A stretch of 64,000 bases of DNA. It comes from Lutibacter oceani. Lineage in GTDB: Bacteria > Bacteroidota > Bacteroidia > Flavobacteriales > Flavobacteriaceae. The notes beneath the pieces were generated by a model. The model saw only the letters and a list, made by a program, of their open reading frames with translations. It did not search any database and had not been told where the DNA came from. The stretch lies in the NCBI RefSeq assembly GCF_003384935.1, contig NZ_QTTQ01000011.1, positions 616,718 to 680,717 of the forward strand, given 5' to 3'. The translations under genes and the position numbers were made by a program. Positions 825 to 17,574 of this stretch are shown one piece after another. Positions within the stretch are counted from its first letter, which is position 1; the number at the start of each line of letters is the position of its first letter.

Positions 825-870
825 CTAATAAATCTTTATGTATATGACAAATATAACATTTTTATTTTAT

Positions 871-889
871 AAGTGTGTAAAAAACACTT
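871..889. promoter_or_regulatory. Candidate AraR operator, site 1
   Basis: Perfect palindrome AAGTGT-N7-ACACTT in the 94-bp gap upstream of araB, centred 56 bp before its ATG. The same 19-bp layout recurs twice between susC and araR (17421-17439, 17485-17503). The sharing of one spaced palindrome by the araB and susC upstream regions is direct observation; binding by the Nudix regulator is inference. It could form an RNA hairpin, but no T-tract follows in the direction of transcription, so it is not a convincing terminator. Confidence 0.6.
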
Positions 890-918
890 CTTTTATTTTT
901 ATAGTTATTAATTAACAT

Positions 919-2946
919 TTATTTTATTTTAAATTTTAAAATAGTAAAAGAGTTTGGTTTCAAACTCACCACTGTTTTTTCACCTTCTAATATAAAATCC
1001 GATTCATTAGGGCTAATTTTATTTGGTGATTCAAACGAATTTCCATCAACCAAGTTATCACTAGTTAAAATTGTAATTATTCCTTTTGATTTAACTTTTT
1101 TTCCAGATATATTAACCGTAACATTCTGAGAATTACTTGATGTATTTACCAATTTAATAATCACCTCTTCTTTCTCTAAATCTTTTGCAGCAGTTGCATA
1201 CAAATCTCCTTGACCAGTTAAAGGTTTTCCTTCTTTAGTTATTGAAAGTAAATCAGTTCCCTTATTAGTTGCATACATTTTTTGCACTTGATAATTGGCC
1301 GTTCCGTATGATTCTAAGTTATTGAACCAAATCATATCAGGAGCCCATTGAAACGCATCAATATGTGCCATTAATGGCGCATATGATGTTAAATGAACTA
1401 CTTCAGCATTACGCTCTAAACCTGTCATAAATGCAGCTTCAGAAAGTGCTGCTTCCCAATTATTTTCCTTCGGACCATCTTCTATCTCTTTTGGATGAGC
1501 GGCATATTCACCTGCAAATATTTTTGGTCCATTTCTATCATAACTATCATAACGTGCAGCATTTTCTCTAAACCATTCAGGACTTCTGTAATAATGTTCA
1601 TCAATAATTTCAGCATTTAATTTTTTCAATTCCTCCATTCCATATTCAAAATAATCTCCATCAGGAAAAGGGCCGCTTCCCGAAACAATAATTATTTCTG
1701 GATATTTAGCTTTAATTGCTTTTTCAAATACTTTATATCTTTCAATATAAGCCGGACCCCATTGCTCATTACCAACTCCAATATATTTTAAATTGAACTT
1801 TTCCGGGTGTCCCATTTCGCTTCTAACTTTACCCCAAGGAGTATTAATTGAACCATTTGCAAATTCAATTAAGTCCAGCGCATCTTGCACATAAGGATCT
1901 AATTCTTCCATTGGAACTAATTCACCTGTGTTAAACTGACAAGCAATTCCGCAGCTTAAAATTGGCAATGGTTCTGCTCCTAAATCTTCAGAAAGTTGAA
2001 AATATTCAAAAAAACCTAATCCAAAACTTTGAAAATAATCGGGAGTTAATTTATGTTTAAACTCCGTATTCCATCTATTTACTAAAATCTCTCGATCTTC
2101 AATTGGCCCAACAGTTTTTTTCCATTGGTAACGACGCGCTAAGGTTCTTCCTTCAACAATACATCCTCCAGGAAATCTTAAAAATCCAGGATCCATATCA
2201 TCTAATAATTGTACTATATCTTTACGCAATCCGTTTTTTCTTCCTTTCCAAGTATCTACAGGAAATAAAGAAATCATATCCAAATCAATTTCTCCAGTGC
2301 CTTCAAAAGTGATTTTAATTTGTGCTTTTGCTTCGGTTTTTAAAGCTGTAAGTTGCGCTGTATAATTTTCCCAATCTGTTGATGTTGGAACAATATTAGT
2401 TTCACCTAAAACAGTTCCTTCTTTATCAATAAATTGAATATTTATTTTTTTAACATTTCCACTTTTTTTTGAAGCTGATAGATAAAAATTATAAGAAGCA
2501 TCTTTATGAATTCCCATTCCTCGGAAACCTTCATTAATTAATACGTAACCTTTATCATCATTTATTTTAACTCTTATATAATTCTTATTACTTGGGTTGC
2601 CTGCATATTTTACTGCTGAAGCTATTCCAGACTCATTATTAAAAGAATGTTTGTTACTATTTGGTTGGCTCCAACCCATTAACGGATTTGTAAATTCAAA
2701 AGATCTGTTCTTTATCATTTCTGCATATAAACCTCCATCCGCTGCAAAGTTGATATCTTCGAAAAAGACACCATACATTGTTGGTTGAATTTTTATGCCG
2801 GAATCTTTTAAATCTACATGCAAATTAACTATTTCGTTAGAAATTGATTTGGCTTCAGAAGTTGTTACTTCTTTTTCCTTACAACTTAATAATGCAGCGA
2901 TTATAAAAGCAACTAAAAATGTGTATGTAAAAAATGGTTTCTTCAT
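919..2946 (-). CDS. GH51 alpha-L-arabinofuranosidase lipoprotein with CBM-like domain
   Basis: Predicted retaining alpha-L-arabinofuranosidase removing arabinose from arabinan or arabinoxylan fragments. 675 aa. The N-terminus has a lipoprotein signal (hydrophobic stretch then LLSC, Cys22), so it is probably membrane-anchored in the periplasm or at the surface. Residues about 95-230 look like a CBM4_9-type beta-sandwich inserted before the catalytic barrel. Acid/base is Glu394 in VGNEQWG and the nucleophile Glu480 in FAGEYAAHP; the C-terminal beta domain follows (about 560-675). It lies 27 bp after the GH43 gene 2974-3924. It differs from the second GH51 at 11107-12666 (NEM/DEW motifs, shorter), so the two probably attack different linkages. 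Substrate is inferred from context. Confidence 0.88.
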   Translation of the reverse strand: MKKPFFTYTFLVAFIIAALLSCKEKEVTTSEAKSISNEIVNLHVDLKDSGIKIQPTMYGVFFEDINFAADGGLYAEMIKNRSFEFTNPLMGWSQPNSNKHSFNNESGIASAVKYAGNPSNKNYIRVKINDDKGYVLINEGFRGMGIHKDASYNFYLSASKKSGNVKKINIQFIDKEGTVLGETNIVPTSTDWENYTAQLTALKTEAKAQIKITFEGTGEIDLDMISLFPVDTWKGRKNGLRKDIVQLLDDMDPGFLRFPGGCIVEGRTLARRYQWKKTVGPIEDREILVNRWNTEFKHKLTPDYFQSFGLGFFEYFQLSEDLGAEPLPILSCGIACQFNTGELVPMEELDPYVQDALDLIEFANGSINTPWGKVRSEMGHPEKFNLKYIGVGNEQWGPAYIERYKVFEKAIKAKYPEIIIVSGSGPFPDGDYFEYGMEELKKLNAEIIDEHYYRSPEWFRENAARYDSYDRNGPKIFAGEYAAHPKEIEDGPKENNWEAALSEAAFMTGLERNAEVVHLTSYAPLMAHIDAFQWAPDMIWFNNLESYGTANYQVQKMYATNKGTDLLSITKEGKPLTGQGDLYATAAKDLEKEEVIIKLVNTSSNSQNVTVNISGKKVKSKGIITILTSDNLVDGNSFESPNKISPNESDFILEGEKTVVSLKPNSFTILKFKIK

Positions 2947-2973
2947 TTAATAAGTAATTTTCAATAATTCATT

Positions 2974-3924
2974 TTAATAATATTCAAAAACTGGTCTTCC
3001 ATTATTATCAAATTTAACTTGCATAACTCTAGCATGTCTGTTTGGATCGTATAAAGGATCACCTACAATTTTTTCATAATCTCTGGCATGATAGATACTT
3101 AATGGTGTTTGACCATCTTCAGCAACAGTAAAACTGTTATGTCCTGGTCCATATATATTTTTGTTATAATCTGACTCTAAAACTGGATATCTAGATTTTT
3201 TCCAAGAATTCCTATCTAATAAATCAGAAGCTGAATCTGCTTCCATCATTCCCATACAATAACAAGCACCTGTTGCGCTTGCAGAAAATGTGATATAAAT
3301 TTTGTCATTATTTTTTATTACAGCTGGACCTTCATTTACCCAAAAATCAATTCTTTCCCAATCATAATCAGGTGTGGTAAGCATAAACTGAGCTGTTTTT
3401 AATTTAATTGGCGATTCCATTTCCGCTAAATATAAATTTGAAGCAGCAAATTGTCCACCCGTTTTTTCAGCCCAACAGAAGTATCTTTTTCCATTATTTT
3501 CGAAAACTGTTCCGTCTAAAGAAAAATCGACAAATGTTTTGTTATCACCATCCGCAGGTTGCATCTGCCCAAGTTCAATCCATTCGTCTTTTAAAGGATC
3601 CTGACCTTTACATTCAAGAACATAAGGTCTTAATTTCCAAATATCATTAACTTCGCTAGCTGCAAAATAAACATACCATTTTCCATCTAAATAATGTATT
3701 TCTGGAGCCCAAATATGCTGACTCATTGGTCCTGTTTTGTGCTTATGCCATACATTAAATGTTTCTGCTTCTTGTAATCCTTTTATTGTTTTAGCTCTTC
3801 TAAGTTCTATAGAATCATATGATGGTACTGAACCCGTAAAATAATAATAACCGTCGGTATGTTTATAAATAAACGGATCGGCACGTCGCTCAACAATAGG
3901 AGTATTTTTTCCAGTTGTACCCAT
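2974..3924 (-). CDS. GH43 enzyme without signal peptide
   Basis: Inverting five-bladed beta-propeller glycoside hydrolase, probably an exo-acting alpha-L-arabinofuranosidase or 1,5-arabinosidase; the exact subfamily cannot be assigned by eye. 316 aa. Catalytic triad positions are visible: Asp16 in RADPFIY (base), Asp137 in SLDGTVF (pKa modulator) and Glu198 in VNEGPAV (acid). Unlike the other three GH43 proteins of the locus it has no signal peptide or lipobox, starting MGTTGKNTP, so it should be cytoplasmic. Its stop-to-start neighbour is the symporter gene, 2 bp upstream in the transcript, which suggests it hydrolyses short arabino-oligosaccharides after import. GH51 follows 27 bp downstream. 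Confidence 0.88.
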   Translation of the reverse strand: MGTTGKNTPIVERRADPFIYKHTDGYYYFTGSVPSYDSIELRRAKTIKGLQEAETFNVWHKHKTGPMSQHIWAPEIHYLDGKWYVYFAASEVNDIWKLRPYVLECKGQDPLKDEWIELGQMQPADGDNKTFVDFSLDGTVFENNGKRYFCWAEKTGGQFAASNLYLAEMESPIKLKTAQFMLTTPDYDWERIDFWVNEGPAVIKNNDKIYITFSASATGACYCMGMMEADSASDLLDRNSWKKSRYPVLESDYNKNIYGPGHNSFTVAEDGQTPLSIYHARDYEKIVGDPLYDPNRHARVMQVKFDNNGRPVFEYY

Positions 3925-3926
3925 TT

Positions 3927-5267
3927 TTATATGTTCAGTTTAGTTTTTATAGTTTCATAATATTTGTCAGTAATTTTGTAGCGAAACATTAGTAAACCCA
4001 TAATTACATGAAAAACACCAGGAATGATTGTTAACATAAGTGCAAGACCAATCAATGCTGTTTCACTTTGTACAGTATCTGGAATGTAGCCAAAAAAGTC
4101 TAACAAATAACCAACGGTTGCACCAGCTACTCCCATACCTGCTTTTTGAGCAAATGAAATACCTCCAAAGGATAGTCCAGAAACACGTTTTCCAGATTCT
4201 GCATGTCCGTAATCTACCGCTTCCGCAATAGCTGACCAGAATACTGGCGCATGTAAATCAACAATAAAGGATAGTATAAAATACAATACATATGCTAAAA
4301 ACATATCTCCGGGTTTCACCACAAAAAACATTACTAAACTGATTGCGCCAACTGCAAGCTGCGTATATTTAAAGAGTTTTACTTTACAGTAACGCTTCGT
4401 TATAAATGTAGACGCGGGCATTGCTAATATTGCGGCAATAACGCCCGTTGCCATAAAAGTAGACTGGACGCTAGCATCGCCTCCAAGAAAATATTTTGCA
4501 TAAAAAATAGCTACAGAACCACGAATTACATACCCTACTGTTCCTGTAAAACATACACCGAATAAAAGTGTCCATTGACCATTTTTGAAAAGCAGTTTGA
4601 ATTGTTCTAATAACGGTGTTTTATCTACAACATGTTCAACACGTTCTTTTGTTGTAAAGAAACTAAATAAGAAAAGAAGCGTACCTAAAAGTGCCATTAA
4701 GCCCATAGCAAGCTGGTAACCTTTAGCAATATCATTTTTACCTAAAGATTCTGCCATAATTGGAACTACAATTGAAACTAGAAAGGCCGCTATTTTTGCA
4801 AAAAAAAGTCGATATCCATTTGCAGATAAGCGTTCCTTTGGATCACTTGTTAATACTCCAATTAAGGATATATAAGGAATTGTTACCGAAGTAAACATAA
4901 TTGTTACAAAAATATAAGTAATGTAAGCGTAAATTAATTTACCCGAATAATCGAATCCTGGAGTTGTAAAGGTTAAAAAAACGGAGATACCAAAAGGTAC
5001 AGATAAAAACAAAAAATAGTGTCTGTAACGCCCCCACTTTGTTGTAATTTTATCGGTTATAAGTCCCATAAGTGGATCGGTTATAGCATCTATAAGCCTA
5101 ACCAAAAGAAATAATACCGCCATGTCTTTAGGTTTTAGACCATAAACATCGGTATAGAAAAAAGTAATAATTAGAAACATTGAGGAAATAACCACGTTTA
5201 CTGCTGCATCTCCTGAACCATAACCGATTTTTTCAAGTATGCTTAACTTTTGATTGTTAGATTTCAT
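3927..5267 (-). CDS. GPH-family sugar:cation symporter (MelB/XynT type)
   Basis: Inner-membrane importer of the glycoside-pentoside-hexuronide:cation family within the major facilitator superfamily. 446 aa with about twelve hydrophobic segments. The signature of the family is seen near the N-terminus: GYGSGDAAVN, then DPLMGLITDK with KWGRYRHYF shortly after, equivalent to the MelB cation-binding and loop 2-3 motif. It sits inside the arabinan operon and is followed after 2 bp by a cytoplasmic GH43, so the likely cargo is arabinose or short arabino-oligosaccharides with H+ or Na+. The 166-bp gap to the upstream GH127 gene is the largest inside the operon and contains a small hairpin. Confidence 0.9.
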   Translation of the reverse strand: MKSNNQKLSILEKIGYGSGDAAVNVVISSMFLIITFFYTDVYGLKPKDMAVLFLLVRLIDAITDPLMGLITDKITTKWGRYRHYFLFLSVPFGISVFLTFTTPGFDYSGKLIYAYITYIFVTIMFTSVTIPYISLIGVLTSDPKERLSANGYRLFFAKIAAFLVSIVVPIMAESLGKNDIAKGYQLAMGLMALLGTLLFLFSFFTTKERVEHVVDKTPLLEQFKLLFKNGQWTLLFGVCFTGTVGYVIRGSVAIFYAKYFLGGDASVQSTFMATGVIAAILAMPASTFITKRYCKVKLFKYTQLAVGAISLVMFFVVKPGDMFLAYVLYFILSFIVDLHAPVFWSAIAEAVDYGHAESGKRVSGLSFGGISFAQKAGMGVAGATVGYLLDFFGYIPDTVQSETALIGLALMLTIIPGVFHVIMGLLMFRYKITDKYYETIKTKLNI

Positions 5268-5323
5268 ATATGTAAAATTTATTTGTTAGAAGTCATATAT
5301 GTTATCGCTTTTTAGTTATTGGT

Positions 5324-5339
5324 GTTTGCTTAGGCAAAC
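5324..5339. other. Small inverted repeat in operon gap
   Basis: GTTTGC-TTAG-GCAAAC, a perfect 6-bp hairpin in the 166-bp gap between the GH127 and symporter genes. No T-tract follows on the minus strand. It could mark mRNA processing or a regulator site; function unknown. Confidence 0.3.
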
Positions 5340-5433
5340 TTGTTGTTAATGACGATTTCATAAATTATTTTCTAGATGTTTTAATTAGTTAACAGTAATG
5401 CTAAACTCACGCCTGTCATATTATTTGGTTTAA

Positions 5434-7413
5434 TTATTCTTTATTTTCAAGCCACACTTTCATTTTACCCACACCTCTATTTGACCAAGTGTAGTAAGGA
5501 ATCGCTTTTAATTTATTATTAGTTATTGTATTAACTCCTTCTAAAATTGGTTCTTTTTGAACTGTAAATTCATCTGAAGTCGAAATTGTAATTGCATCAA
5601 AATTTGGATTGTCAATTTCCTCAACTGCATACACTAAAGGACCATACTCTAAAGATAATTTTCCCCTGTTTTCTTCAACCTTATCATTAGCTTTTACGGT
5701 TCTCACTTCCATTGGAAAATTAAGCTCAATTTTATCAGCTGCTTTCCAATTTCTGTTCACTTCAAAATAACCATCTTTTATTGAAACCTCCACTTTTTCA
5801 CCATTAATGGTTAAAGTTGGTTGGGCTTTAGATGAATCTGTATACCTATACAAATCACCTGGTAAAACTTCATTTCTAGACCAGCCCGGAATTCTAAATT
5901 TTACAGTAAATTCTGATTCTTTTTCTGGTTTTAAAGCGATAGTTACAGCTCCATTCCAAGGGTAATTTGTTTGTTGTGAAATTTGAATAGAATTATTATC
6001 TAATGCTACAACAGCTTCATTTGAAGCATATAAATTAACATAAAGTTCATTGTTAGTTTTTGAGTAAATTAAACCTGGTAGTGAAGGAATAAAACGAATT
6101 ACATTAGTTGGACAACAAGAACAATCAAACCAAGATTGGCGCGTACAAGAACCTCTGTTAGATTTATAAACACCGTCTGATTCTAATGCGTTTGGATAGA
6201 AAAAGTTAGTTCCATCTAAAGATAATCCTGAAATTAACCCGTTGTATAAAGTTCTTTCGATTACATCAAAATATTTTACATCTCCAGATAAATTATGCAA
6301 TCTATGATTCCAATAAACGTCACCAATTGCTGCGCAGGTTTCATTGTACGCAGTTAGGTTTGGTAATTCATAATTATCACCAAAAGCTTCACCATCATGT
6401 CTGGCTCCAATACCTCCTGTGATATACATTTTTTTATTTACCATATTGTCCCATAATTTTTGAACAGCTAAATTATATGCTGTATCTTTTTTTATGGCAG
6501 CAATATCTGTCATAGCCGCATACATATAAACAGCTCTTACAGCGTGCCCAACAACTTCATCTTGTTGTATAACCGGAATATGATCTTGTGAATAAGGGCC
6601 GAATAATTCGTGATTTTTAGGATTCCCTCTATTATCTAAAAAATATTTTGCTAAATTTAAATAGGCTTCATTTTTAGTAATTTGATATAATTTTATCAAA
6701 CCTGATTCTATAATTTGATGCCCCGGAACTGCCTGAATTTTACCTTCTCCTTCACCAAATGTTTTCACCATTAAATCGGCATTTTTTAAAGCAATGTCTA
6801 AGAAATTTCTCTTTCCTGTTGCTTCATAATGTACCGCTGCCGCTTCATACATATGTCCAGCGTTATACAATTCATGGCTCATAAATAAAAATTCCCAGCG
6901 TTTCCCTTCATCCACTTTTACCCAAGGCGCAGGTGGTTTAGCCGGATTAATAGTTCTCCATGTTGTTAAATACCCATCGCTTTCCTGACCTGTTTTTACT
7001 ATATTAATTAGAGAATCTAGTAGTTTTTCCAATGGTTTATTTGGAGCGCTAATTAAAGAATTAGATGCGCCTTCAATAATCTTATAAACATCCGAATCAT
7101 CAAAAGGCATTGCTCCTTTTACGGTTCCTTCCATTTTACCACCAGCCATTAAAAAATTGTCAAAGCGTCCTTCTTCCTCACATTTTGTGATAGCGTATTC
7201 TATTGTTTTTTCCTGAACAGTTTTAATAATAAGCAACCAAAATTCATCTGTAAGCTTTACATTTTGAATGTTAACAGGTTTAATAGGGTATCCTTTTTGT
7301 TCATTATTATTAATACTTTTTGAATTATGGGATGAACCTTCTCCAGTACATCCCATAAATACCAAAAAAAATATACTACCACTAACAAGTAATATTTTGT
7401 AAATACGTTTCAT
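5434..7413 (-). CDS. GH127 beta-L-arabinofuranosidase lipoprotein
   Basis: Predicted retaining beta-L-arabinofuranosidase (DUF1680 family, HypBA1-like), releasing beta-linked L-arabinofuranose found on plant glycoproteins and some pectin side chains. I use the ATG at 7411-7413, giving 659 aa, because it begins a proper lipoprotein signal (KRIYKILLVSG, then FMGC) and lies 5 bp after the upstream GH43 stop; the longer frame to 7449 would overlap that gene. With this start, Glu342 (GEAFG), Glu358 and Cys360 (NETCAA) and the Cys433-Cys434 pair (CSCCPTN) match the zinc-cysteine active site known for HypBA1, whose nucleophile is the first Cys of the CC pair. The (alpha/alpha)6 barrel is followed by C-terminal beta-sandwich regions. 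Confidence 0.9.
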   Translation of the reverse strand: MKRIYKILLVSGSIFFLVFMGCTGEGSSHNSKSINNNEQKGYPIKPVNIQNVKLTDEFWLLIIKTVQEKTIEYAITKCEEEGRFDNFLMAGGKMEGTVKGAMPFDDSDVYKIIEGASNSLISAPNKPLEKLLDSLINIVKTGQESDGYLTTWRTINPAKPPAPWVKVDEGKRWEFLFMSHELYNAGHMYEAAAVHYEATGKRNFLDIALKNADLMVKTFGEGEGKIQAVPGHQIIESGLIKLYQITKNEAYLNLAKYFLDNRGNPKNHELFGPYSQDHIPVIQQDEVVGHAVRAVYMYAAMTDIAAIKKDTAYNLAVQKLWDNMVNKKMYITGGIGARHDGEAFGDNYELPNLTAYNETCAAIGDVYWNHRLHNLSGDVKYFDVIERTLYNGLISGLSLDGTNFFYPNALESDGVYKSNRGSCTRQSWFDCSCCPTNVIRFIPSLPGLIYSKTNNELYVNLYASNEAVVALDNNSIQISQQTNYPWNGAVTIALKPEKESEFTVKFRIPGWSRNEVLPGDLYRYTDSSKAQPTLTINGEKVEVSIKDGYFEVNRNWKAADKIELNFPMEVRTVKANDKVEENRGKLSLEYGPLVYAVEEIDNPNFDAITISTSDEFTVQKEPILEGVNTITNNKLKAIPYYTWSNRGVGKMKVWLENKE

Positions 7414-7418
7414 AAATT

Positions 7419-8429
7419 TTAATCTAATTCGTTTCCTAAAACGGGCCAAAGCTCAGCATCCCATGCTATTTCAGCAACCCTCAATTTTGGCAATCCTTTA
7501 TCATTAGCATCATATCCGTGGAAAAAAATATAATCTTTACCATCAAAAGTATAAGCACTGTTATGCCCAGCGCCATACCAGTTTTTATCTCCTTCTATTA
7601 TTAAAGTTCCACCTCCCTTATTGAGTTCTTTTCCTTCTTTATCTACATAAGGCCCTGTTACTTTTTTTGAACGACCAACCACCACTTTATAAGTACTATT
7701 TTCTCCACGACAACAGAAATCCCAAGACAAAAATTGATAGTAATAATCACCTTTTTTAAAGATAAAAGGTCCTTCTAACGCTGCATTTCCCGGTTCGTCA
7801 TCTTCTAAATCGCTATCTCTATCTCGTCTAGCAATGGTATGCCATTCTTCCGGCTGTGCAATCGATTTTAAATCTGAATTTAATTTTACCATTTTTAATC
7901 CGCTCCAAAATGAGCCAAATGATAACCAAGGTGTATTATTTTCATCAAAAATTAAATTAGGGTCAATCGCATTCCATAAATCTCTGTTTGGAACTGATTG
8001 AATTACAATTCCTTGATCCTCCCATTTGTAATTTTCATCAGTTGGGTTTAGTGTTTTATTTGTAGTTACACCAATTGCTGAAGTGTTTTTTCCAAATGCT
8101 GAAACAGAATAATATAAGTAATAGGTATTGTTATGAAATGAAATATCTGGTGCCCAAATATGACCATTGAAACCCGGTGCTACATCAAGAGCCCATTCTG
8201 GATATTCCGCAAAAACAGGAGCTGCCTGTTTCCATGTTTTTAAATCTTTAGAAATAAATCTTGTAATTCCAGGTCCTGTACAAAATAAGTAATAAGTATC
8301 CCCTTGTTTAGCTACCACAGGATCGTGTGTAATTGGCCTTTCTTGAGCGCAAGAAGCCGATACCATGAAAATTGAAATTAAAAATAAAATACTTTTAAAA
8401 GCGATTTGTATGTTATTAATTTGTTTCAT
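7419..8429 (-). CDS. GH43 endo-1,5-alpha-L-arabinanase
   Basis: Predicted endo-arabinanase cutting the alpha-1,5 arabinan backbone. 336 aa, single five-bladed propeller with no C-terminal extension. The exported N-terminus ends SASCAQERP, which is compatible either with a lipobox (Cys27) or with signal peptidase I cleavage after CAQ. Catalytic residues: Asp36 in THDPVVA, Asp156 in NAIDPNL and Glu219 in LEGPFIF. GHIWAPD, NAIDPNL and GSFWSG are the set typical of characterised arabinanases. It sits between another GH43 (15 bp upstream) and GH127 (5 bp downstream), clearly co-transcribed. Confidence 0.88.
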   Translation of the reverse strand: MKQINNIQIAFKSILFLISIFMVSASCAQERPITHDPVVAKQGDTYYLFCTGPGITRFISKDLKTWKQAAPVFAEYPEWALDVAPGFNGHIWAPDISFHNNTYYLYYSVSAFGKNTSAIGVTTNKTLNPTDENYKWEDQGIVIQSVPNRDLWNAIDPNLIFDENNTPWLSFGSFWSGLKMVKLNSDLKSIAQPEEWHTIARRDRDSDLEDDEPGNAALEGPFIFKKGDYYYQFLSWDFCCRGENSTYKVVVGRSKKVTGPYVDKEGKELNKGGGTLIIEGDKNWYGAGHNSAYTFDGKDYIFFHGYDANDKGLPKLRVAEIAWDAELWPVLGNELD

Positions 8430-8444
8430 ATCCTAACTTTTAAA

Positions 8445-9437
8445 TTATTGAATTCCTTCTGAAGTCATTATAATCCGCTGCATAGTTCCATCTTCATTAT
8501 AATATAGATTATCTATACAAATAGAACGTCTAAAACTTCCTCCATTCGGTTGAATACTTCCATTATGATAAATAAAATAATCTTTCCCTTTAAACTCTAT
8601 AATCGCCTGATGGTTGGTATTACTGTTTCCAGCAACTTCATTTAAAATACCTTTAAATTCCCAAGGACCAGTAATCGATTTGCTCATAGCATAGGCTATT
8701 TTTTCAGGAAATTGATATGCATATGATAAATAATACCAATCTCCTTTTTTATGAATCCAAGGTGCTTCTGTAAAATTTGGCAAGTCAATGGTTTCTATTG
8801 GGCCGTCCAATTCAATCATATTTTCTTTTAATTTCGCATAATGACATACTGTATTCCCCCAAAATAAATAAGCCTGCCCATCATCATCAATAATAACTGT
8901 TGGATCAATATCATCCCAGCTAATATCAGTTTGAGTTGTCATATTATTGGTAATTAATGCTTTTCCTAAGGCGTCTTTAAAAGGTTCTATTGGACTGTCA
9001 GCAACTGCAACACCTATTGCTTTTCCATGAATACTACCATGTTCAACCGTTACATACCAATAAAATTTTCCATTTCTTTCAATTACTTGAGCAGCCCAAG
9101 CATCTCCAGATGCCCAAGAAAAATCTGAAGTTTTTAAAGGAACGGGATGTTCTTTCCAATTAACCATATCTGATGAAGAATATACCAACCACTCATTCAT
9201 TTTATAAAAATTGAAATCGTCCGGAGCTTCATCATGACCAGCATATAAATAAACACTATCGTTATAAACAATAGCAGCAGCATCCGCAGTAAATTTATCC
9301 TTAATAATAGGATTGTTTATTTTTAAAGGTTTAACAGCCGTTCCAGAAACTTTAGAAACTTCAACTTTATCTGTTTTATTTATTGTACAGCTTATAATAA
9401 GCGAGGCGAGTATTGTACTTAAAAATATTTTTCTCAT
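8445..9437 (-). CDS. GH43 family lipoprotein, probable arabinofuranosidase
   Basis: GH43 propeller enzyme of 330 aa with a clear lipoprotein signal (LASLIISC, Cys17). Putative catalytic residues are Asp52 in FTADAAA, Asp178 in DDIDPTV and Glu224 in NFTEAPW. The acid motif TEAPW and the KMNEWLVYSSSDMVNW segment place it with the exo-acting xylosidase/arabinofuranosidase-like branch rather than with arabinanases, which carry NAIDP and EGP. It is therefore likely to remove arabinose side chains or chain ends made by the endo-arabinanases next door. Operonic: 54 bp after the GH43 at 9492 and 15 bp before the one at 7419. Confidence 0.85.
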   Translation of the reverse strand: MRKIFLSTILASLIISCTINKTDKVEVSKVSGTAVKPLKINNPIIKDKFTADAAAIVYNDSVYLYAGHDEAPDDFNFYKMNEWLVYSSSDMVNWKEHPVPLKTSDFSWASGDAWAAQVIERNGKFYWYVTVEHGSIHGKAIGVAVADSPIEPFKDALGKALITNNMTTQTDISWDDIDPTVIIDDDGQAYLFWGNTVCHYAKLKENMIELDGPIETIDLPNFTEAPWIHKKGDWYYLSYAYQFPEKIAYAMSKSITGPWEFKGILNEVAGNSNTNHQAIIEFKGKDYFIYHNGSIQPNGGSFRRSICIDNLYYNEDGTMQRIIMTSEGIQ

Positions 9438-9449
9438 AATTTATGTTTT

Positions 9450-9492
9450 AAATTTCTTCTATTTTAAAGAATAAAAAAAGGTGAAGAAATTT
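9450..9492. other. Intercistronic inverted repeat
   Basis: AAATTTCTTC and GAAGAAATTT form a 10-bp inverted repeat with a 23-nt loop between two GH43 genes, touching the upstream gene's stop codon. In mRNA it would make a stem-loop at the junction. A role in mRNA stability is inference. Confidence 0.35.
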
Positions 9493-11096
9493 TAATAAAC
9501 TTTTTTAGCCCAAACAGTGCGTCCTGACGGAGTAAAACCTGAATAAGTTATAGTTCTTTTTCTAGGTGAAGCTTCCCAGTCCCAAGCATTTTCTACATTA
9601 AACTTATCATTATTTATGGTAAGAATTTTATTTGAACTATCATAAGACCAAGAACCCGAACCACTTATTTTGTTATCACTTGCTAAATTAATATAAATAG
9701 AATTTTGTATTGTTTTGTATTGATATTCCATTGTAATTTGCTCCCAAGTACCAACCAAATCTTCTTCTGTAATGTTAGTATCTGGAACACCTGCAAATCT
9801 TTCAGGAGAAATTGTTGGCCAACCATCTTCAGTCCATTGTATACTTCTAACATGCCCCATCATTATTGCATTTGAAACATTTATTCCTGGAACATTTTCA
9901 GGTAAACGAGCCTGAGATGCATAATACCATTCTTTAGTTTGAGGATCTTGAAATACTGAACAATGCGAAAACCCAACCCAACCTGTGTGGTTATAAAATT
10001 TGTATGGATGTGTTAGCATTGGCCAAGATTCAGCACCATTAGAAACGTTACCACCATCAATTCCATAATACGGGCCAGTAATACTTGTAGAGCGCGCTAC
10101 ACGTGTATTATAGGCAACAGACAATTCATCATAAGCTAAAAATAAATAATAATATCCTGTGTCTTCATTGTAAATAATTTCAGGACCTTCAGAGGCTTGC
10201 CAGCGACTATTTCCTCTATGTGCTATTTTAATTCCATAATCATCAATAGTTTCTAATTTGTCTGGTTTACCTGTTTCCGGATTTAATTTCAATGCAGCAA
10301 TCCCTGAATGCCAGGAACCATAAACTAACCAATGTTCTCCTTCTGGTGTAATCACCATACTTGGATCAATAGCATTGAATTTAAAATATCCACTCCAATC
10401 TCCGCCTCCAGTTCTTGTATAGGTTTCTAGGCCATCTGGTTCAGAACAAACCACCATTCCTTTGTCTTCCCAAACATTTGAAGCTAAATCATCTGATTCA
10501 GCCAATCCAATAAATGCACGTTCGGACCATGACGTATTAAAATCAGTTCCAACAATAGGATTTATTACAACAATGCTATAATACATTCTAAATTTAGTAC
10601 CTACTTTTTGAATATATGGCGCCCAATAGCCATAATTTGGATTTTCAATTGGAGGTAAAGCTGGAATCATTCTTGCTCTTTTGTTATTTAATGAATCTTT
10701 TACCCAAGCAGGAGCATTAGTCATCGTACTCCCTCTGTATTCCCAATTTACCAAATCTTTTGATCTTCGGTGGTGAAAATGTCCGTTTCCATCATGAGCA
10801 TTTCCATAAGAAGCATCCGTTTGATACATATAATAATAGTCTCCGTCTTTTGCCACTGTTGGATCGTGTACATTTGCCAAATTCCATTGAGAACGATTAT
10901 TCCAAGATGCTATTGGTGTATAATCATCTGCATAGGTTGGCCCGGGAAATGTTTCTGGAACAACTACAACAGGATCTGGATCCGGTTCTGGATCTGGTTT
11001 TAAATTATCATCACCTGAACAACTATTTATTGAAAACATCAATAAAGAAAAAGTGAAAATTGATCCTAATTTTATATAGTAATTCAAGAATTTCAT
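9492..11096 (-). CDS. GH43 arabinanase lipoprotein with C-terminal GH43_C domain
   Basis: Predicted endo-alpha-1,5-L-arabinanase of the two-domain type. 534 aa. Signal and lipobox end at SINSC (Cys26), followed by a flexible Asp/Pro linker (KPDPEPDPDPVVVVP), a typical arrangement for a surface lipoprotein. The propeller spans about 65-430 with Asp78 (HDPTVA), Asp244 (NAIDPSM) and Glu303 (SEGPEII). Residues about 440-534 form a small beta-rich domain beginning EEDLVGTWEQ and resemble the GH43 C-terminal domain (PF16369) found in Abn2-type arabinanases. Compared with the 336-aa arabinanase downstream it probably acts outside the cell on polymeric arabinan. It starts 10 bp after the GH51 stop. 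Confidence 0.88.
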   Translation of the reverse strand: MKFLNYYIKLGSIFTFSLLMFSINSCSGDDNLKPDPEPDPDPVVVVPETFPGPTYADDYTPIASWNNRSQWNLANVHDPTVAKDGDYYYMYQTDASYGNAHDGNGHFHHRRSKDLVNWEYRGSTMTNAPAWVKDSLNNKRARMIPALPPIENPNYGYWAPYIQKVGTKFRMYYSIVVINPIVGTDFNTSWSERAFIGLAESDDLASNVWEDKGMVVCSEPDGLETYTRTGGGDWSGYFKFNAIDPSMVITPEGEHWLVYGSWHSGIAALKLNPETGKPDKLETIDDYGIKIAHRGNSRWQASEGPEIIYNEDTGYYYLFLAYDELSVAYNTRVARSTSITGPYYGIDGGNVSNGAESWPMLTHPYKFYNHTGWVGFSHCSVFQDPQTKEWYYASQARLPENVPGINVSNAIMMGHVRSIQWTEDGWPTISPERFAGVPDTNITEEDLVGTWEQITMEYQYKTIQNSIYINLASDNKISGSGSWSYDSSNKILTINNDKFNVENAWDWEASPRKRTITYSGFTPSGRTVWAKKVY

Positions 11097-11106
11097 ATTA
11101 AATATT

Positions 11107-12666
11107 TTATTTTGCTTCTAAAACTACAACTGAAAAAGGTGGTAATTCTATTTCAAGAACCCCTTTTTTAACTTTGAAGTTTTTAAATTCTTTTGGCTGA
11201 ATTTTAGCTGGATTATCAAATGTATTATGGTCTTGTAATTTTGAAGAACTTAATATACTTCCAGTAATGTTTTTAACTCCTAAATCTTTAATATTGATTT
11301 CAATTTTGTTTTCTTTTTTGGAATCAATATTAACTAATGATATATGAACTAATCCATTTTTATCTTTTGAAGCTGAAGCGGATATTGCTGGTAAAGTTTC
11401 ATTATTATAAGTGTATAATTCCGATTCAAAAGTTAATGGTAATAACTGTGCATCATGATGAACCGTGTACATTTTCATAATATGGTATGTTGGTGTTAGC
11501 AACATTTTTTCACCTTCAGTTAAAATTACAGCTTGTAAAACGTTGACAGTTTGGGCAAGATTTGCCATTTTTACTCTGGAACTGTGGTTGTTAAAAATAT
11601 TTAATGTTGTTCCAGCTATCATAGCATCTCTCATTGTATTTTGTTGGTATAAAAACCCTGGATTTGTTCCTTCTTCAACGTCGTACCATCCACCCCATTC
11701 ATCAACTATTAAAGCAACTTTATTATTAGGATCGTACTTATCCATAATAGCAGTATGCTTATTAATAAGTTCGTCCATTTTTAAAGCTGTTTGCATTGTA
11801 GAAAAATACTGAGCTTCATCAAATTTTGTTGAAGAGCCTTTTTTCTCCCATTCAACAAAAGAATAAGAATGTAAGGCAACGCCTTCAATTAAATTTTTAG
11901 GAATATCACGCATTAATACTTCCGTCCAATGATAATCTGCAACATTTGCTCCAGAAGCAATTCTAAACATTTTGTCACTATTAGTCCAATCCGTCATAAA
12001 AGTAGCGTATTGTCTATAGAGGTTCGAATAATATTCTGGTGTCATGTTTCCACCACATCCCCACATTTCATTTCCAACACCCCAAAATGTTACGTTCCAA
12101 GGTTCTGGTCTTCCATTTTCTTTTCTTAAATCGGACATTGGGCTTCCTTCTTTATGTCCTACATATTGCAAATAATCAGTAAATTCCTGTACAGTACTAC
12201 TTCCAACATTTGCAGCTAAGTATGGTTCTGTACCTAAGATTTCGCATAAATCTAAAAAATCATGGGTTCCAAAACTATTATCTTCTGTTACTCCTCCCCA
12301 CCATCTATTTACCATTTCTGGCCGGTCTTCTTTTGGTCCAATACCATCTTTCCAATGATATGTATCGGCAAAACAACCTCCTGGCCAACGTAAATTAGGT
12401 ATTTTTAATCCTTTTAAAGCATCAATAATATCATTTCTAACACCATTCGTATTAGGTATTTTACTATCTTCTCCAACATAAATACCATCATAAATACATC
12501 TTCCAAGATGTTCTGCAAAATGACCGTAAATATGTTTACTTATTATTGGAGCTGTTTCATCCAAATTAATTTTTACAGTTGTTGTATTGTTTTGTGAATA
12601 ACCCATAAAAGTTATAAATAGAAATACAAAAACTTTTAGAAACTTAAAGTGCCTTTTATTTAACAT
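11107..12666 (-). CDS. GH51 alpha-N-arabinofuranosidase, exported
   Basis: Retaining alpha-L-arabinofuranosidase of classic GH51 type. The first ATG (12664-12666) gives 519 aa and follows an AAAAGG-like ribosome site; the longer frame to 12693 needs a TTG start inside a leader hairpin and is less likely. The N-terminal hydrophobic stretch ending GYSQ is a signal peptide with no lipobox, so the protein is probably periplasmic. Using the ATG numbering, Glu200 in GVGNEMWG is the acid/base and Glu323 in LIVDEWGGWY the nucleophile. LRWPGGCFADTYHW is the conserved substrate-binding loop. It is the first enzyme gene after susCD, 89 bp downstream of susD, with a 9-bp stem-loop in that gap. Confidence 0.92.
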   Translation of the reverse strand: MLNKRHFKFLKVFVFLFITFMGYSQNNTTTVKINLDETAPIISKHIYGHFAEHLGRCIYDGIYVGEDSKIPNTNGVRNDIIDALKGLKIPNLRWPGGCFADTYHWKDGIGPKEDRPEMVNRWWGGVTEDNSFGTHDFLDLCEILGTEPYLAANVGSSTVQEFTDYLQYVGHKEGSPMSDLRKENGRPEPWNVTFWGVGNEMWGCGGNMTPEYYSNLYRQYATFMTDWTNSDKMFRIASGANVADYHWTEVLMRDIPKNLIEGVALHSYSFVEWEKKGSSTKFDEAQYFSTMQTALKMDELINKHTAIMDKYDPNNKVALIVDEWGGWYDVEEGTNPGFLYQQNTMRDAMIAGTTLNIFNNHSSRVKMANLAQTVNVLQAVILTEGEKMLLTPTYHIMKMYTVHHDAQLLPLTFESELYTYNNETLPAISASASKDKNGLVHISLVNIDSKKENKIEINIKDLGVKNITGSILSSSKLQDHNTFDNPAKIQPKEFKNFKVKKGVLEIELPPFSVVVLEAK

Positions 12667-12683
12667 ACCTTTTAATTTAATAT

Positions 12684-12715
12684 CATAAGGCAAGTTATAA
12701 AAAACCTGCCTTATG
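12684..12715. other. Stem-loop between susD and GH51
   Basis: CATAAGGCA and TGCCTTATG form a perfect 9-bp inverted repeat with a 14-nt loop, in the leader of the GH51 gene. The T-run is in the loop, not after the stem, so it is not a simple terminator. A hairpin after susD could protect the susCD message and set a lower level for the enzymes; that role is inferred. Confidence 0.5.
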
Positions 12716-12755
12716 AAAAATTAACTCAATTTAAAATTCAAATAATATAATATTT

Positions 12756-14318
12756 TTAATATCCCTCATTTTGAATAGTTCCAGGATTGTTATCCATTTC
12801 TAACTGTGGAATTGGGAAATATTCTCTTCCAGCTTTATAAGTATCATACTCATAATCTCTAGATTTTAACCAATCTACTTTTGAAGAATTTTGTAACCAT
12901 CCCCATCTTCTAATATCATCAAAACGGTGACCTTCTAATGCAAACTCTAACAACCTTTCATGTGCTATTTGATCTCTCATTTCTTGTTGAGTCATTCCAG
13001 GCTTAGTGGTTTCTAAATCAGGCAAATTAACACGGTCTCTTACCATTTGAATGTATTGATATGCATTACCAGTAGCTCCAGTTTCATTTAAACTTTCGGC
13101 GTACATTAACAATACATCTGCATAACGCATTATGCGCTCATTAATTCCTGATCTCCAATCAAATTCATCTGGTTGACCTCCATCTGAATTTTGGTATTTC
13201 CTACAAAATAAATCATTTAAATCTTGTTGATTTCCTCCATAAAAAGTTGCAAAATCTTGTCCATACAACATCATACCTCCTGGTTTGTTATAAAACATGG
13301 TAGCATCTAACCTTGGATCTACTTCATCATTTACTGTTTTTTCAATATGGAAATCATTAAATAATGATTGCGTTGGTTGTACATCAGTCCAACCAAATCC
13401 TCTAGGTCCATAAGTAATTGCTCTTGCAGAAGTTTTTCCCCATCCAGATGCTGGAGCACCACCCCAACCTAAATCTACACCACCTGCATCTCTACTAAAT
13501 TGAACTTCAAATACAGATTCTGAATTATTTTCATTTGCATCAGTAAAGTTATCTCTATAGTCTGCAACTAAAGAATATACATTTAAATCTATCACTTTTT
13601 TAAAGTTATCTCTTGCGTTTGGAAAATCTTGAGTGAACAAATATGCCTTCGCTAAATATGCTAGTGCAGCACCTTTTGTTGCTCTCCCAACTTGACCTGC
13701 GTCTAAACCTGAAACACTTGTATAAGATGTTGGAAGCATTTCTGAAGCTATTTGAAAATCTGAAATAATTTGTGCCCAACCCTCTTCATTAGATTTTTGT
13801 GCACTATAAATTTCACTATTATCTGTTGGTAAAGGAACACTTTTAAACAACTTTACTGCATGCATAAAAAACAATCCTCTCATAAAATGAGCCTGACCTA
13901 TTATTCTATCTTTTAAAGCTTGATCCATTTCAATTTCTGGAACATTTTCTAATACTTGGTTCGCACGGTAGATTCCTTGATAATAGGTTTCAAAAGCCCA
14001 TCCATAAATTGCAGCATCAGAAACACTGGAGTTAAATCTTCCTACATTAAACATTGCTCCCCAAGGACTTTGACTTCTTGTGTCGTCGCCTTTTAAATCT
14101 AATAATAAAGGAGTACTTCTCATGTAGGTACCATCTGTTAATAAACTACCATAAGCAGCATTTACACCTTTAAGTGCATCTTCGTCTGTTTTCCAAAATG
14201 ATCCTTCAGTATTTACATTTGGATCAACTTGAATTAAATCTGCTTCTTCAACACAACTCGCAGTAACAAGTATTATTGAAAGAAAAACAAGTAGATAATA
14301 TAATTTGTTATATTTCAT
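12756..14318 (-). CDS. SusD/RagB family glycan-binding lipoprotein
   Basis: Surface lipoprotein that captures glycan and forms the lid of the SusC transporter. 520 aa, normal for the family. The signal ends ILVTASC, so it is lipidated. TPR-like helices and the RagB/SusD signature regions are visible, for example RANQVLENVPEI, the GQAHFMRGLFF helix, GQVGRATKGAALAYLAKAYL, and near the C-terminus LAHERLLEFALEGHRFDDIRRWG-like spacing (IAHERLLEFALEGHRFDD). It begins 33 bp after susC and precedes the arabinan-active enzymes, so arabinan or arabino-oligosaccharide is the inferred ligand. Confidence 0.95.
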   Translation of the reverse strand: MKYNKLYYLLVFLSIILVTASCVEEADLIQVDPNVNTEGSFWKTDEDALKGVNAAYGSLLTDGTYMRSTPLLLDLKGDDTRSQSPWGAMFNVGRFNSSVSDAAIYGWAFETYYQGIYRANQVLENVPEIEMDQALKDRIIGQAHFMRGLFFMHAVKLFKSVPLPTDNSEIYSAQKSNEEGWAQIISDFQIASEMLPTSYTSVSGLDAGQVGRATKGAALAYLAKAYLFTQDFPNARDNFKKVIDLNVYSLVADYRDNFTDANENNSESVFEVQFSRDAGGVDLGWGGAPASGWGKTSARAITYGPRGFGWTDVQPTQSLFNDFHIEKTVNDEVDPRLDATMFYNKPGGMMLYGQDFATFYGGNQQDLNDLFCRKYQNSDGGQPDEFDWRSGINERIMRYADVLLMYAESLNETGATGNAYQYIQMVRDRVNLPDLETTKPGMTQQEMRDQIAHERLLEFALEGHRFDDIRRWGWLQNSSKVDWLKSRDYEYDTYKAGREYFPIPQLEMDNNPGTIQNEGY

Positions 14319-14351
14319 TTTTTTATATTTTTAAATTTATTTATCGTTTAA

Positions 14352-17300
14352 TTAAAAGTCAACTTCTAATCCAAACATAAAACCTCTTGGATTTGGGAAT
14401 GAACCTAAATCAAAACCTCTTGAAAACAATCCGTCACTACTAAAATCTGGATCGTAACCTTTATATTTACTAATTGTAAGTACGTTTTGTCCTGAAACAT
14501 AAACTCTTGCTCTTTGTAATACATTTATATTGTTAACAGGAATATTGTATCCTATTTCAATATTTTGAAGTTTTAAATAATCTCCATTTTCAATAAAACG
14601 ACTAGATAATCTGTTATTTCCGTTTGGATCTCCAATTATTGGTCTAGGAATATCGGTGTCTGTATTATTCGGAGTCCAGTAATCTAACATATCTGTATGG
14701 TGATTTACATAATCTCCTAACATTAAATCGTGGTAAGTTCCATTAAGCACTTTATTTCCTCCGTGACCTTGCCAAAAACATGAAAAGTCAAAATCTTTAT
14801 AAGATGCACTCATATTTAATCCAAAGCTATATTTTGGAATTGAAACACCTTGAAAACTTCTATCTTCATCTGTAATTAAACCATCATCATTTAAATCTCT
14901 GTATTTAATATCTCCAGGAGCTGCAGAAGATTGAAATGCATGTGCGTCTATTTCTGCTTGATTTTGAAAAATACCCTCAACTTCATACACATAAATTTCA
15001 CCAATTGATCTTCCTACTTCAGTTTTAGAACCCGCTCCATAAATTGGATTTCCATCTAAACCTATTTTTAACACTTCATTTTTTAGGGTTCCTAAATTTG
15101 CAGAAACACTATATTTAAATTCATTATCTGAATTATTATATCCAATTGCAAATTCTAAACCAGTATTTTTAACCTCCGCTGCATTAGTAGTAATACTTGC
15201 TGGCCAAGATCCAGTTGAATATGGTAATGGAACATCTGCTAGTAAATTTGTAGATTTTTTCTCAAAATACTCTACTGTAAAATCTAATTTATTATTTAAT
15301 AAACCTAATTCTATAGCGGCGTTAATTGTTTCTGTATCTTCCCATTTTATATTTGGATCTTTAAGACTAACAGCTGTTGTACCAGGTGCTAATGTATTTC
15401 CAAAAGCATAACTAGCAAATCCATTTACGGTTCCTGTATATCCATAGTTAGCAATTGTATTGTTACCTAATTGTCCATAACCCCCTCTTACTTTCATAGT
15501 ATTAATTACCTCTGGAAGTGTTATAAAACTTTCATTATGTACTTTCCAAGCTCCAGACAAAGAGAAATAATCGCCCGTATTGTTTTCTGAAGGGAACAAA
15601 GAAGATTTATCACGTCTGAAATTAGCTGTTAATAAATATCTGTCATCATAAGAATAGTTTAATCTACTTATATATGAAATTGAAGTAATTGTACTTTCAT
15701 ATTCTCTGGCTGAAATATCATCAGAATATTCAATATGACTAATTTCTCCTGGTTCAAAACCAACACCTCTTGAAATATGGTTTTTATGGTCAAAACGTTC
15801 TTGAACCCAACCTAATAACACATCAAATTTATGTTTTTCTATTTCCTTTGAGTAACTTAATAAATTATCAAGAATTGTTCTTGTTTCGTTACCACTAGTT
15901 AAATCTAAAGCAGATTCTTCATTTGTAGTTAAATAATACCAACCTAAATCACTTGGTGGATTAAAAAACTTTGTTTGCCAATCTAATTGGTCAGCACTTG
16001 CCCTAATTGTATATTTTAATCCATCAATAATTTCAAGTTCTCCCCAAACATTACCAATAAATCTATTTCGGTTATTACTATTATCAATTAAGTTATTAAA
16101 TCCTATAACATTTAAGGTAATAGCTCTCTGAGTTAAGTTATCAGCACCACCATATCCTCCTAACCTATTTTCATCATAAACAGGCATAGTAGGAATTGCT
16201 TGTAGCAATTGAATTACAGATGAAGTTCCTGGGAGGTATTCATTAAAACTCTCTTTATCTGATTTTGTATATCCAATTTTTGCTCCATACTTAAACTTAC
16301 CTTTTGTACCATTTAAATTCAAGGTTGTTGATAAACGTTCGTATTTTTGAGGCGTTTTAATATAACTTGTATTGTCAAAATAGTCAATATTCATACTGTA
16401 GTTTAAATTCTCAGCACCACCTGCAAAAGTTAAAGAATGATTTTGAACAACTCCTGTTTCATAAGCTGCATCCTGCCAATCTGTATCTACATTATCAATA
16501 AATAAAGGGCTTGAAGAATCATTACCTGGCACCACTGTTAAACCTGCATTTAGTTCTGCTGCACTTGTAATGTTTTGGTAACCAACTCTATCAGTTAATG
16601 AAAGTTTTTTAGGTACATTTTGAAATCCAACAACAGATTTATATCTTAAATCAATTTTTCCTGTTTTTCCTTTTTTGGTAGTAATAATAATTACCCCATT
16701 TGCACCTCTAACACCATAAATGGCTGCAGAAGAAGCATCTTTTAAAACCTGCATAGATTCAATTTCTCCCGGTGCAAAATCATAAGGAGAATCAACAATC
16801 ATTCCGTCAATTACAAACAATGGATTGTTATTATTAAATGAAGTAATACCCCTAATTTTAATGTTTACAAAACCTCCTGGTTCACCTGAGGATTGTACGG
16901 TAACACCCGCAACTCTACCTTGCAACATTTTTCCAACATCATAAGAAACAGTTTTTTTAGCCTCATCAACATCAACAACGCTAACAGCACCTGTTAAATC
17001 AGATTTTCGTTGTGTACCGTAACCAACTACAACAACTTCATCTAAAGATTGGGTATCTTCTTGTAAAGCAACATTAACTTGAGTAACACTTCCAACTGCT
17101 ACTTCTTTTACTTTAAAACCTACATAAGAAAATACTAATACATCTGTTGCAGATGCATTAATAGAATACTTACCATTAAAGTCAGTTACAACTCCATTTG
17201 TAGTTCCTTTAACTAACACATTTACACCTGGCAATGGGATTCCCTCATTTACAGATGTAACAATTCCATCAATAACCTTATTTTGCTGAGCTAAAAGGTT

Positions 17301-17396
17301 ATTTGTACACATAAACATAATTACTAATGCCATAAGCCCTTCTTTTAGAGGCCAATGCAACTTGTAATTAAAAAATAATTGTTTAATTGCTATCAT
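14352..17396 (-). CDS. SusC/RagA TonB-dependent outer-membrane transporter
   Basis: TonB-dependent importer for glycan fragments across the outer membrane. The ATG at 17394-17396 gives 1014 aa and a normal signal peptide ending NNLLAQ; the frame is open to 17465, but that would add an unlikely AT-rich leader containing an operator site. After the signal come a carboxypeptidase-regulatory-like domain (GVNVLVKGTTNGVVTD), a TonB-box-like segment (LDEVVVVGYG), the plug domain (DLTGAVSVVD, VAGVTVQS, IKIRGI) and a large beta-barrel ending in Phe (FGLEVDF). It heads the arabinan operon and is transcribed away from the araR-like gene, with two copies of a shared palindrome in between. Confidence 0.96.
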   Translation of the reverse strand: MIAIKQLFFNYKLHWPLKEGLMALVIMFMCTNNLLAQQNKVIDGIVTSVNEGIPLPGVNVLVKGTTNGVVTDFNGKYSINASATDVLVFSYVGFKVKEVAVGSVTQVNVALQEDTQSLDEVVVVGYGTQRKSDLTGAVSVVDVDEAKKTVSYDVGKMLQGRVAGVTVQSSGEPGGFVNIKIRGITSFNNNNPLFVIDGMIVDSPYDFAPGEIESMQVLKDASSAAIYGVRGANGVIIITTKKGKTGKIDLRYKSVVGFQNVPKKLSLTDRVGYQNITSAAELNAGLTVVPGNDSSSPLFIDNVDTDWQDAAYETGVVQNHSLTFAGGAENLNYSMNIDYFDNTSYIKTPQKYERLSTTLNLNGTKGKFKYGAKIGYTKSDKESFNEYLPGTSSVIQLLQAIPTMPVYDENRLGGYGGADNLTQRAITLNVIGFNNLIDNSNNRNRFIGNVWGELEIIDGLKYTIRASADQLDWQTKFFNPPSDLGWYYLTTNEESALDLTSGNETRTILDNLLSYSKEIEKHKFDVLLGWVQERFDHKNHISRGVGFEPGEISHIEYSDDISAREYESTITSISYISRLNYSYDDRYLLTANFRRDKSSLFPSENNTGDYFSLSGAWKVHNESFITLPEVINTMKVRGGYGQLGNNTIANYGYTGTVNGFASYAFGNTLAPGTTAVSLKDPNIKWEDTETINAAIELGLLNNKLDFTVEYFEKKSTNLLADVPLPYSTGSWPASITTNAAEVKNTGLEFAIGYNNSDNEFKYSVSANLGTLKNEVLKIGLDGNPIYGAGSKTEVGRSIGEIYVYEVEGIFQNQAEIDAHAFQSSAAPGDIKYRDLNDDGLITDEDRSFQGVSIPKYSFGLNMSASYKDFDFSCFWQGHGGNKVLNGTYHDLMLGDYVNHHTDMLDYWTPNNTDTDIPRPIIGDPNGNNRLSSRFIENGDYLKLQNIEIGYNIPVNNINVLQRARVYVSGQNVLTISKYKGYDPDFSSDGLFSRGFDLGSFPNPRGFMFGLEVDF

Positions 17397-17420
17397 ACTA
17401 ATTTGGTTTAAATAATTTAT

Positions 17421-17439
17421 AAGTGTAATTTTCACATTT
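17421..17439. promoter_or_regulatory. Candidate AraR operator, site 2
   Basis: AAGTGT-N7-ACATTT, the same 19-bp layout as the site before araB, centred 34 bp upstream of the susC ATG and so probably in the leader or near the start point. The last half-site has one mismatch to the perfect palindrome. Confidence 0.6.
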
Positions 17440-17484
17440 GTAAAATAATAAAAAAAAAATAACATTTCCTAATTTTTAACAAAG

Positions 17485-17503
17485 AAATGTTTATTTCACA
17501 CTT
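17485..17503. promoter_or_regulatory. Candidate AraR operator, site 3
   Basis: AAATGT-N7-ACACTT (AAGTGT-N7-ACATTT on the minus strand), centre 64 bp from site 2 and about 81 bp before the araR ATG. It overlaps a longer inverted repeat, TGTTTATT/AATAAACA at 17488-17515, and touches a 7-of-8 match to the TAnnTTTG element for susC (17480-17487, minus strand). Occupancy could block both divergent promoters. Confidence 0.6.
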
Positions 17504-17520
17504 ATTTAATAAACAAGACC

Positions 17521-17558
17521 TTATATATTATGAATATTTTATGGAAGTTTATATATTA
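17521..17558 (+). repeat. 10-bp direct repeat upstream of araR
   Basis: TTATATATTA occurs at 17521-17530 and again at 17549-17558, a 28-bp period, just before the regulator gene. It may contain the araR promoter or be chance in AT-rich DNA. Confidence 0.3.
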
Positions 17559-17574
17559 GCGCAAAATAGCTGAT

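Follow-up and report, generated by a model that had tools for sequence, protein, structure and literature searches.

Palindromes at the arabinan and arabinose genes of Lutibacter oceani as probable AraR operators with counterparts across Flavobacteriaceae

The window analysed here, a 64-kb stretch of Lutibacter oceani DNA, carries an araR gene divergent from susC, a run of arabinan utilisation genes lying 3' of susC and, at the window edge, the beginning of araB (Table 1). The GH51 assignment within this run is our reading of arabinofuranosidase domains. Beyond the edge, araB is followed by araD, araA, an aldose epimerase gene and a sodium symporter gene of the SSF transporter type (L096). An exact scan of the whole window for the 19-bp palindrome AAGTGT-N7-ACAYTT on either strand returned three copies only, one of them located between a GH51 gene and araB, 46 bp from the araB start codon, and the other two in the gap between susC and araR. 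The same exact scan of the window found no AAGTGT/ACAYTT half-site pair at any spacer of 0-30 bp except 7. Under a first-order Markov model of the window 0.05 copies are expected, and at least three palindromes were reached in none of 400 simulated windows. The earlier note had described three such copies with an unvarying 7-bp spacer, confined to the front of araB and the susC-araR gap, and both statements were borne out by the scan.

All three palindromes are intergenic, provided that susC starts at the revised in-frame ATG, the context of which is similar in Lutibacter flavus (L016); this start, rather than that of the longest ORF, places operator 1 outside the coding sequence. Operator 1 lies 24 bp ahead of the likely susC start codon and just downstream of the degenerate susC -7 region. 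Operators 1 and 2 are 64 bp apart, centre to centre, and show a mirror-image asymmetry, with AAGTGT/ACACTT facing outward and the A-bearing halves facing inward. An exact TAnnTTTG was not found for the window araR, for which a possible -7 element is listed in Table 1.

Table 1. Features of the araB-susC-araR region in the window, and further palindromes elsewhere in the Lutibacter oceani genome
Feature	Position	Strand	Remarks
araB (L-ribulokinase)	1..824	-	cut by the window edge; goes on in L096
araB -7 promoter box, TATATTTG	848..855	-	perfect TAnnTTTG, 15 bp after the operator
araB AraR operator (predicted)	871..889	.	perfect AAGTGT-N7-ACACTT
Arabinan utilisation genes 3' of susC	919..14318	-	susD, two GH51, four GH43, GH127, GPH transporter
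Terminator-like hairpin	950..967	-	near the 3' end of the last GH51 gene, ahead of the araB promoter
susC, revised start 17396	14352..17396	-	in-frame ATG; longest-ORF start at 17465
AraR operator 1 (predicted)	17421..17439	.	outer half AAGTGT, inner half ACATTT
susC -7 region, TTATTTTA	17441..17448	-	degenerate
AraR operator 2 (predicted)	17485..17503	.	inner half AAATGT, outer half ACACTT
Possible araR -7 element, TATATTAG	17552..17559	+	similar text by eye in several relatives
araR	17575..18264	+	Nudix-like sensor and NrtR/AraR winged helix (Pfam)
Extra site 1	8.9 kb past the window edge		upstream of a GH97 gene
Extra site 2			82 bp upstream of the transaldolase start
Extra site 3			between two genes read by eye as lpxD and topB

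The araR product matches the Pfam families NUDIX (6.4e-13), NrtR_WHD (4.1e-25) and AraR_C (4e-10), all above the cut-offs, and since a 51% paralogue with the same domains is encoded in the Lutibacter oceani genome, the domains alone do not decide its identity as AraR. Its best PDB match is BtAraR (BT0354) from Bacteroides thetaiotaomicron (structures 5bs6/5dd4/5ddg/5deq, E 1.4e-70), with 103 of 217 residues identical (47%), and its nearest named araR genes are two from Lutibacter, at 87-88%. In the structural work on BtAraR, arabinose is held by R34, R86 and H131, and DNA is contacted by K179, R180, N181 and K184 of the recognition helix together with K204 and R205 of the wing (PMC4666351, excerpts). 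Across 81 araR genes, comprising that of the window and those of 80 named loci, the three arabinose-contacting residues and the recognition-helix residues D178-K179-R180-N181 are invariant; K184 is replaced by N or S in all 81, K204 by T or R in 80 with K kept in one, and R205 by K in all 81. Because Flavobacterium stands in the titles of 42 of the 80 named loci, such locus counts are not independent. The six DNA contacts of BtAraR were called absolutely conserved, the orthologues being from Bacteroides and Prevotella (PMC4666351, excerpts), and the replacements at 184, 204 and 205 mean that this claim does not extend to the 81 homologues. These changes limit how far structural details and the strict family claim can be carried over; the reading of an AraR-like function is not affected. 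In the sequence tree the window protein belongs to a clade of 34 rows (96/86) and BtAraR to a clade of 6 rows (100/99), and the deep forks between them are left open.

The palindrome itself also has a counterpart, as the gel-shift oligonucleotide BT0365 carries AAGTGTAAAAAAGACACTT, i.e. AAGTGT-N7-ACACTT, and the BtAraR-DNA structure reads the GTGT core (PMC4666351, excerpts). According to the excerpted descriptions, BtAraR and the window AraR share the NrtR family, R34/R86/H131, the helix DKRN, a common GTGT-N7-ACAC core with AAGTGT half-sites as in BT0365, tandem sites, and the control of araBAD-type genes, GH51, GH43 and SusCD, a control that for the window protein is predicted. Unlike in the BtAraR system as excerpted, araR and the arabinan susC diverge in the window, araB is preceded by an operator and promoter of its own, several flavobacterial genomes have separate operators for tal or tkt, AAATGT inner halves occur in flavobacterial sites, and residues 184, 204 and 205 differ. 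XylR (BT0791) and the NAD-sensing NrtR of other phyla have the same Nudix-like and winged-helix family with a different effector; DNA motifs are highly variable in the NrtR family, BtAraR and XylR being 33% identical (PMC4666351, excerpts). AraR of Bacillus subtilis has the same name and L-arabinose-relieved repression but is GntR/LacI-type, another family (PMC4666351, excerpts). No report of an AraR motif, its binding or expression in Flavobacteriia was found in the open-access PMC literature, and the palindrome would thus extend a known type of operator to a lineage for which no earlier report was found.

The link between motif and regulator was examined in 199 Flavobacteriaceae genomes (198 genera), 28 of them with AraR (best match of at least 63% identity, a cut chosen after the identity distribution had been seen), 27 with only a 46-58% relative and 144 with neither. 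Strict sites (AAGTGT-N7-ACACTT) numbered 57, 19 and 31 in these groups, i.e. 2.04, 0.70 and 0.22 per genome, and the reversed-pattern control gave 7, 2 and 19. AraR genomes differed from all others with a Mann-Whitney p of 2e-14, the genomes being treated as independent. Strict sites are absent from five of the 28 AraR genomes. Among the 81 loci, which were chosen by the presence of araR, a site with at most one mismatch occurs within 600 bp upstream of araR in 74 and is absent from seven, and 40 permuted half-sites reached at most 2 loci. The spacer is 7 in 73 araR loci, and spacers of 0-6 and 8-20 were found upstream of araR in none of the loci scanned. With two mismatches the motif occurs in 80 of 81 loci and one permuted control in 42, so only the one-mismatch count was used. 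The proposal of the earlier note that the palindrome defines an AraR regulon motif for Flavobacteria thus stands in that site number follows AraR and that most araR loci carry it; its claim to a new motif does not, as the operator had already been published for Bacteroides AraR (PMC4666351, excerpts).

By our tally, 41 of the 57 strict sites in the 28 AraR genomes could be assigned to a target gene, namely araB (16), tkt (6), GH97 (5), GH51 (4), araR/susC (3), tal (3), a sodium symporter (2), another susC (1) and GH43 (1). Here tkt was recognised by eye, and elsewhere by comparison with the copy in L142. The other 16 sites match nothing in the reference set, consisting of the window and neighbouring proteins, and two of them lie inside genes. 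The 80 named loci contain 173 sites with no more than one mismatch, and by our tally 162 of these adjoin a gene of the araR, susC/susD, ara, GH or tkt/tal groups. This and related genomes had been named in the earlier note as the place to look for the motif beside arabinose genes and araR orthologues, and it is found there, as the assigned strict sites and the 74 araR loci attest. In the Lutibacter oceani genome outside the window, three further AAGTGT-N7-ACAYTT sites occur (Table 1), of which that between lpxD and topB is probably a chance match. In this genome the wider pattern AARTGT-N7-ACAYTT matches 11 times and its reversed control 5 times; 5 of the 11 sites carry AAATGT in both halves. 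The restriction of the motif to araB and susC-araR applies to the window, and the predicted regulon is wider.

The sites at transketolase and transaldolase genes extend the predicted regulon to the pentose phosphate pathway. Among 30 tal loci of the 28 AraR genomes (30 of 33 matches covered), 6 have an upstream site with at most one mismatch, as against 0 of 30 from 30 genomes without a match, tal alone being a weak test. Five loci were checked for gene order (L166, L189, L190, L192 and, in part, L142/L202); in these tkt is followed by tal, and one operator before tkt may thus serve both. In all seven BtAraR-like loci examined (L284-L290), tkt is in the same gene run as araA, araD and araR, and a GTGT-N7-ACAC site lies before araM in five and between araR and araD in two; this shared gene run suggests that the link of AraR to the pentose phosphate pathway is probably of long standing. 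No mention of such a tie was found in the excerpts of the Bacteroides papers. As far as sequence can tell, both transketolase and transaldolase belong to the AraR regulon.

Promoter elements are placed consistently around the sites. In the excerpted literature TAnnTTTG is given as the -7 box of Bacteroidota, accompanied in Bacteroides fragilis by TTTG near -33. Of the 28 AraR genomes, 16 have a strict site ahead of araB, and in 14 of these 16 regions an exact TAnnTTTG starts 11-16 bp after the operator, so the operator would cover the -33 region. The window has the same geometry with a perfect TATATTTG, which agrees with the prediction of the earlier note that araB has its own promoter inside the operon; such a promoter is very likely from the sequence, and araB may be a separate transcription unit. 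The hairpin scan found one terminator-like hairpin against a shuffle mean of 0.0, which is consensus evidence, and an E. coli-type promoter scan gave 2 matches against 2.0 in shuffles, i.e. no excess. At tkt and tal, an araB-like TAnnTTTG lies 10-16 bp after the operator in 3 of 6 and 1 of 3 sites, respectively. On the strand divergent from araR the register is different: 52 of 74 loci have a TAnnTTT(A/G) whose first base lies 9 bp ahead of the first operator, TTTG stands at -36 to -30 in 41 of these 52, and the operator would accordingly cover the start site. The divergent gene is susC or GH51 in most loci and araB in some; by eye, GH97 and some GH51 sites resemble this susC-type register. 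Pairing of sites is also common, with 36 pairs 63-66 bp apart (start to start) in the 81 loci and a second common spacing of 99 bp found 29 times, mostly in Flavobacterium. Tandem sites in B. vulgatus/B. dorei have a 42-nt gap between 21-bp sites, equal to 63 bp start to start (PMC4666351, excerpts).

Taken with the conserved sites, promoter boxes and residues and the co-occurrence with AraR, the palindromes are, with high confidence, operators of the AraR encoded beside them, an arabinose-sensing repressor of the NrtR family; its binding, repression and response to arabinose would, by analogy, be those of BtAraR. With apo-AraR bound as a dimer, each AAGTGT half-site would receive one winged helix. 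At araB, the bound dimer over the -33 region would block RNA polymerase, and at susC operator 1 would lie over the start site, just after the -7 region. Operator 2 is 64 bp away, about six helical turns, and two dimers could perhaps cooperate or loop across the pair. L-arabinose in the Nudix pocket would move the winged helices out of register and free the DNA, by which the arabinan genes and the araBDA operon would be induced together, with araB, downstream of the arabinan genes, under its own AraR-controlled promoter.

It is improbable that another regulator, such as the galactose-linked sister of AraR or a Crp-like protein, binds the palindrome and that the nearness of araR is incidental. 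The 51% paralogue of Lutibacter oceani precedes galT and galK, 5 of 8 related paralogue loci adjoin galT and/or galK (the eight were examined by tblastn), and BtAraR scores 238.9 bits against the paralogue and 238.2 bits against the window AraR. Two paralogue loci (L294 and L297) have an exact AAATGTA-N5-TACATTT upstream, in which the 7-bp spacing is kept, L292 has a near match and L293 has AAACGTA-N5-TACGTTT; no such site was found at the other four, Lutibacter oceani included. Against the sister, all eight family members have K179 replaced (by D, A, G, P or S), and strict sites average 0.70 in genomes with only a relative, as against 2.04 where AraR is present. Three of these relatives (46-58%), those of L189, L190 and L192, adjoin tkt and tal and in two cases araB as well; they are probably AraR proteins in their own right. 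A Crp-like palindrome does co-occur with AraR sites in Bacteroides, but its consensus, TATGTT-n-TA-n-AACATA, has another half-site and spacing (PMC3878776, excerpts).

Still less probable is that the inverted repeats act as RNA hairpins, i.e. terminators or attenuators, rather than as protein sites. They could pair in RNA, and 871-889 folds at -4.2 kcal/mol, but the three repeats fold no better than shuffles (z -0.47, -0.34 and 0.03), the loop length is fixed at 7 while the loop bases vary, and the araB repeat lies upstream of the -7 box and so would be left out of a transcript from that promoter. The chance of three accidental matches in AT-rich intergenic DNA is close to negligible: although a relaxed scan of the window with 3 mismatches gave 217 matches against 248.5 expected, no excess and no signal, and although one of the six Lutibacter oceani sites lies between apparently unrelated genes, copies of the near-exact motif in the window far exceed the chance expectation, and the same places are conserved across genera. 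The 200 of 217 relaxed matches listed are consistent with the exact scan, and among them two one-mismatch matches, 4566-4584 and 16602-16620, lie inside coding sequence.

With the AraR operator reading preferred, a broader joint reading is put forward tentatively, and as a whole it is rather doubtful. The Flavobacteriaceae AraR would be a pentose switch whose operators take one of two standard positions relative to the Bacteroidota promoter: over -33 for araB and some tkt, or over the start site for susC and, judging by eye, for GH97 and GH51. It would use pairs six helical turns apart and have tkt and tal under its command; the galactose sister would have arisen by loss of the lysine that reads the G of the operator, as AAGTGT became AAATGT.

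The analysis extends to Flavobacteriaceae a repressor-operator pair whose structure was solved in gut Bacteroides, with promoter positions that can be checked by a few gel shifts. The paralogue, with its altered recognition residue, lends itself well to testing how operator preference shifts among NrtR regulators, and 848-889 at araB is a candidate arabinose-inducible promoter for genetics in Flavobacteriaceae.

The paralogue of AraR (the predicted arabinose-sensing NrtR-family repressor) encoded in the same genome belongs to a clade in which galT and/or galK are adjacent in five of the eight loci, and the recognition-helix lysine K179 (BtAraR numbering) is absent from all eight. The exact palindrome AAATGTA-N5-TACATTT lies upstream of the paralogue in two of these loci, with a near match in one further locus, and was not found upstream of the Lutibacter oceani copy.

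Features at individual loci (L handles; C1 and C3, contigs of the L. oceani genome)
Feature	Locus	Contig position	Remark
AraR paralogue	L099:8825-9505	C3:68827-69489	51%; directly 5' of galT and galK
Third NrtR-type regulator	L100:8426-9193	C1:646440-647138	36-38% identity to AraR over two stretches
Y_Y_Y/LuxR-type SusR-like regulator	L096:6787-9597		divergent from GH97 gene preceded by a predicted AraR site
LigB-type dioxygenase gene	L096:11790-12620		after araBDA-epimerase-transporter run
Strict operator (AAGTGT-N7-ACACTT), tkt, tal, second AraR-like gene (51%)	L166:5030-10001		arranged consecutively; AraR genome G118

Besides the AraR-like gene in the tkt-tal row, G118 carries an 80% AraR, hence two AraR-type regulators in a single genome. 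The third NrtR-type regulator gene adjoins a palindrome, TTGTGT-N7-ACACAA (L100:9247). In the window, a shikimate-kinase-like domain and 6-phosphogluconate dehydrogenase share a single frame (19423-21309), which adjoins a sigma-70 family gene.

Beyond the window edge, the GH97 gene is possibly under dual control by AraR and the SusR-like regulator. The galT/galK-linked paralogue is perhaps a galactose regulator with an altered operator.
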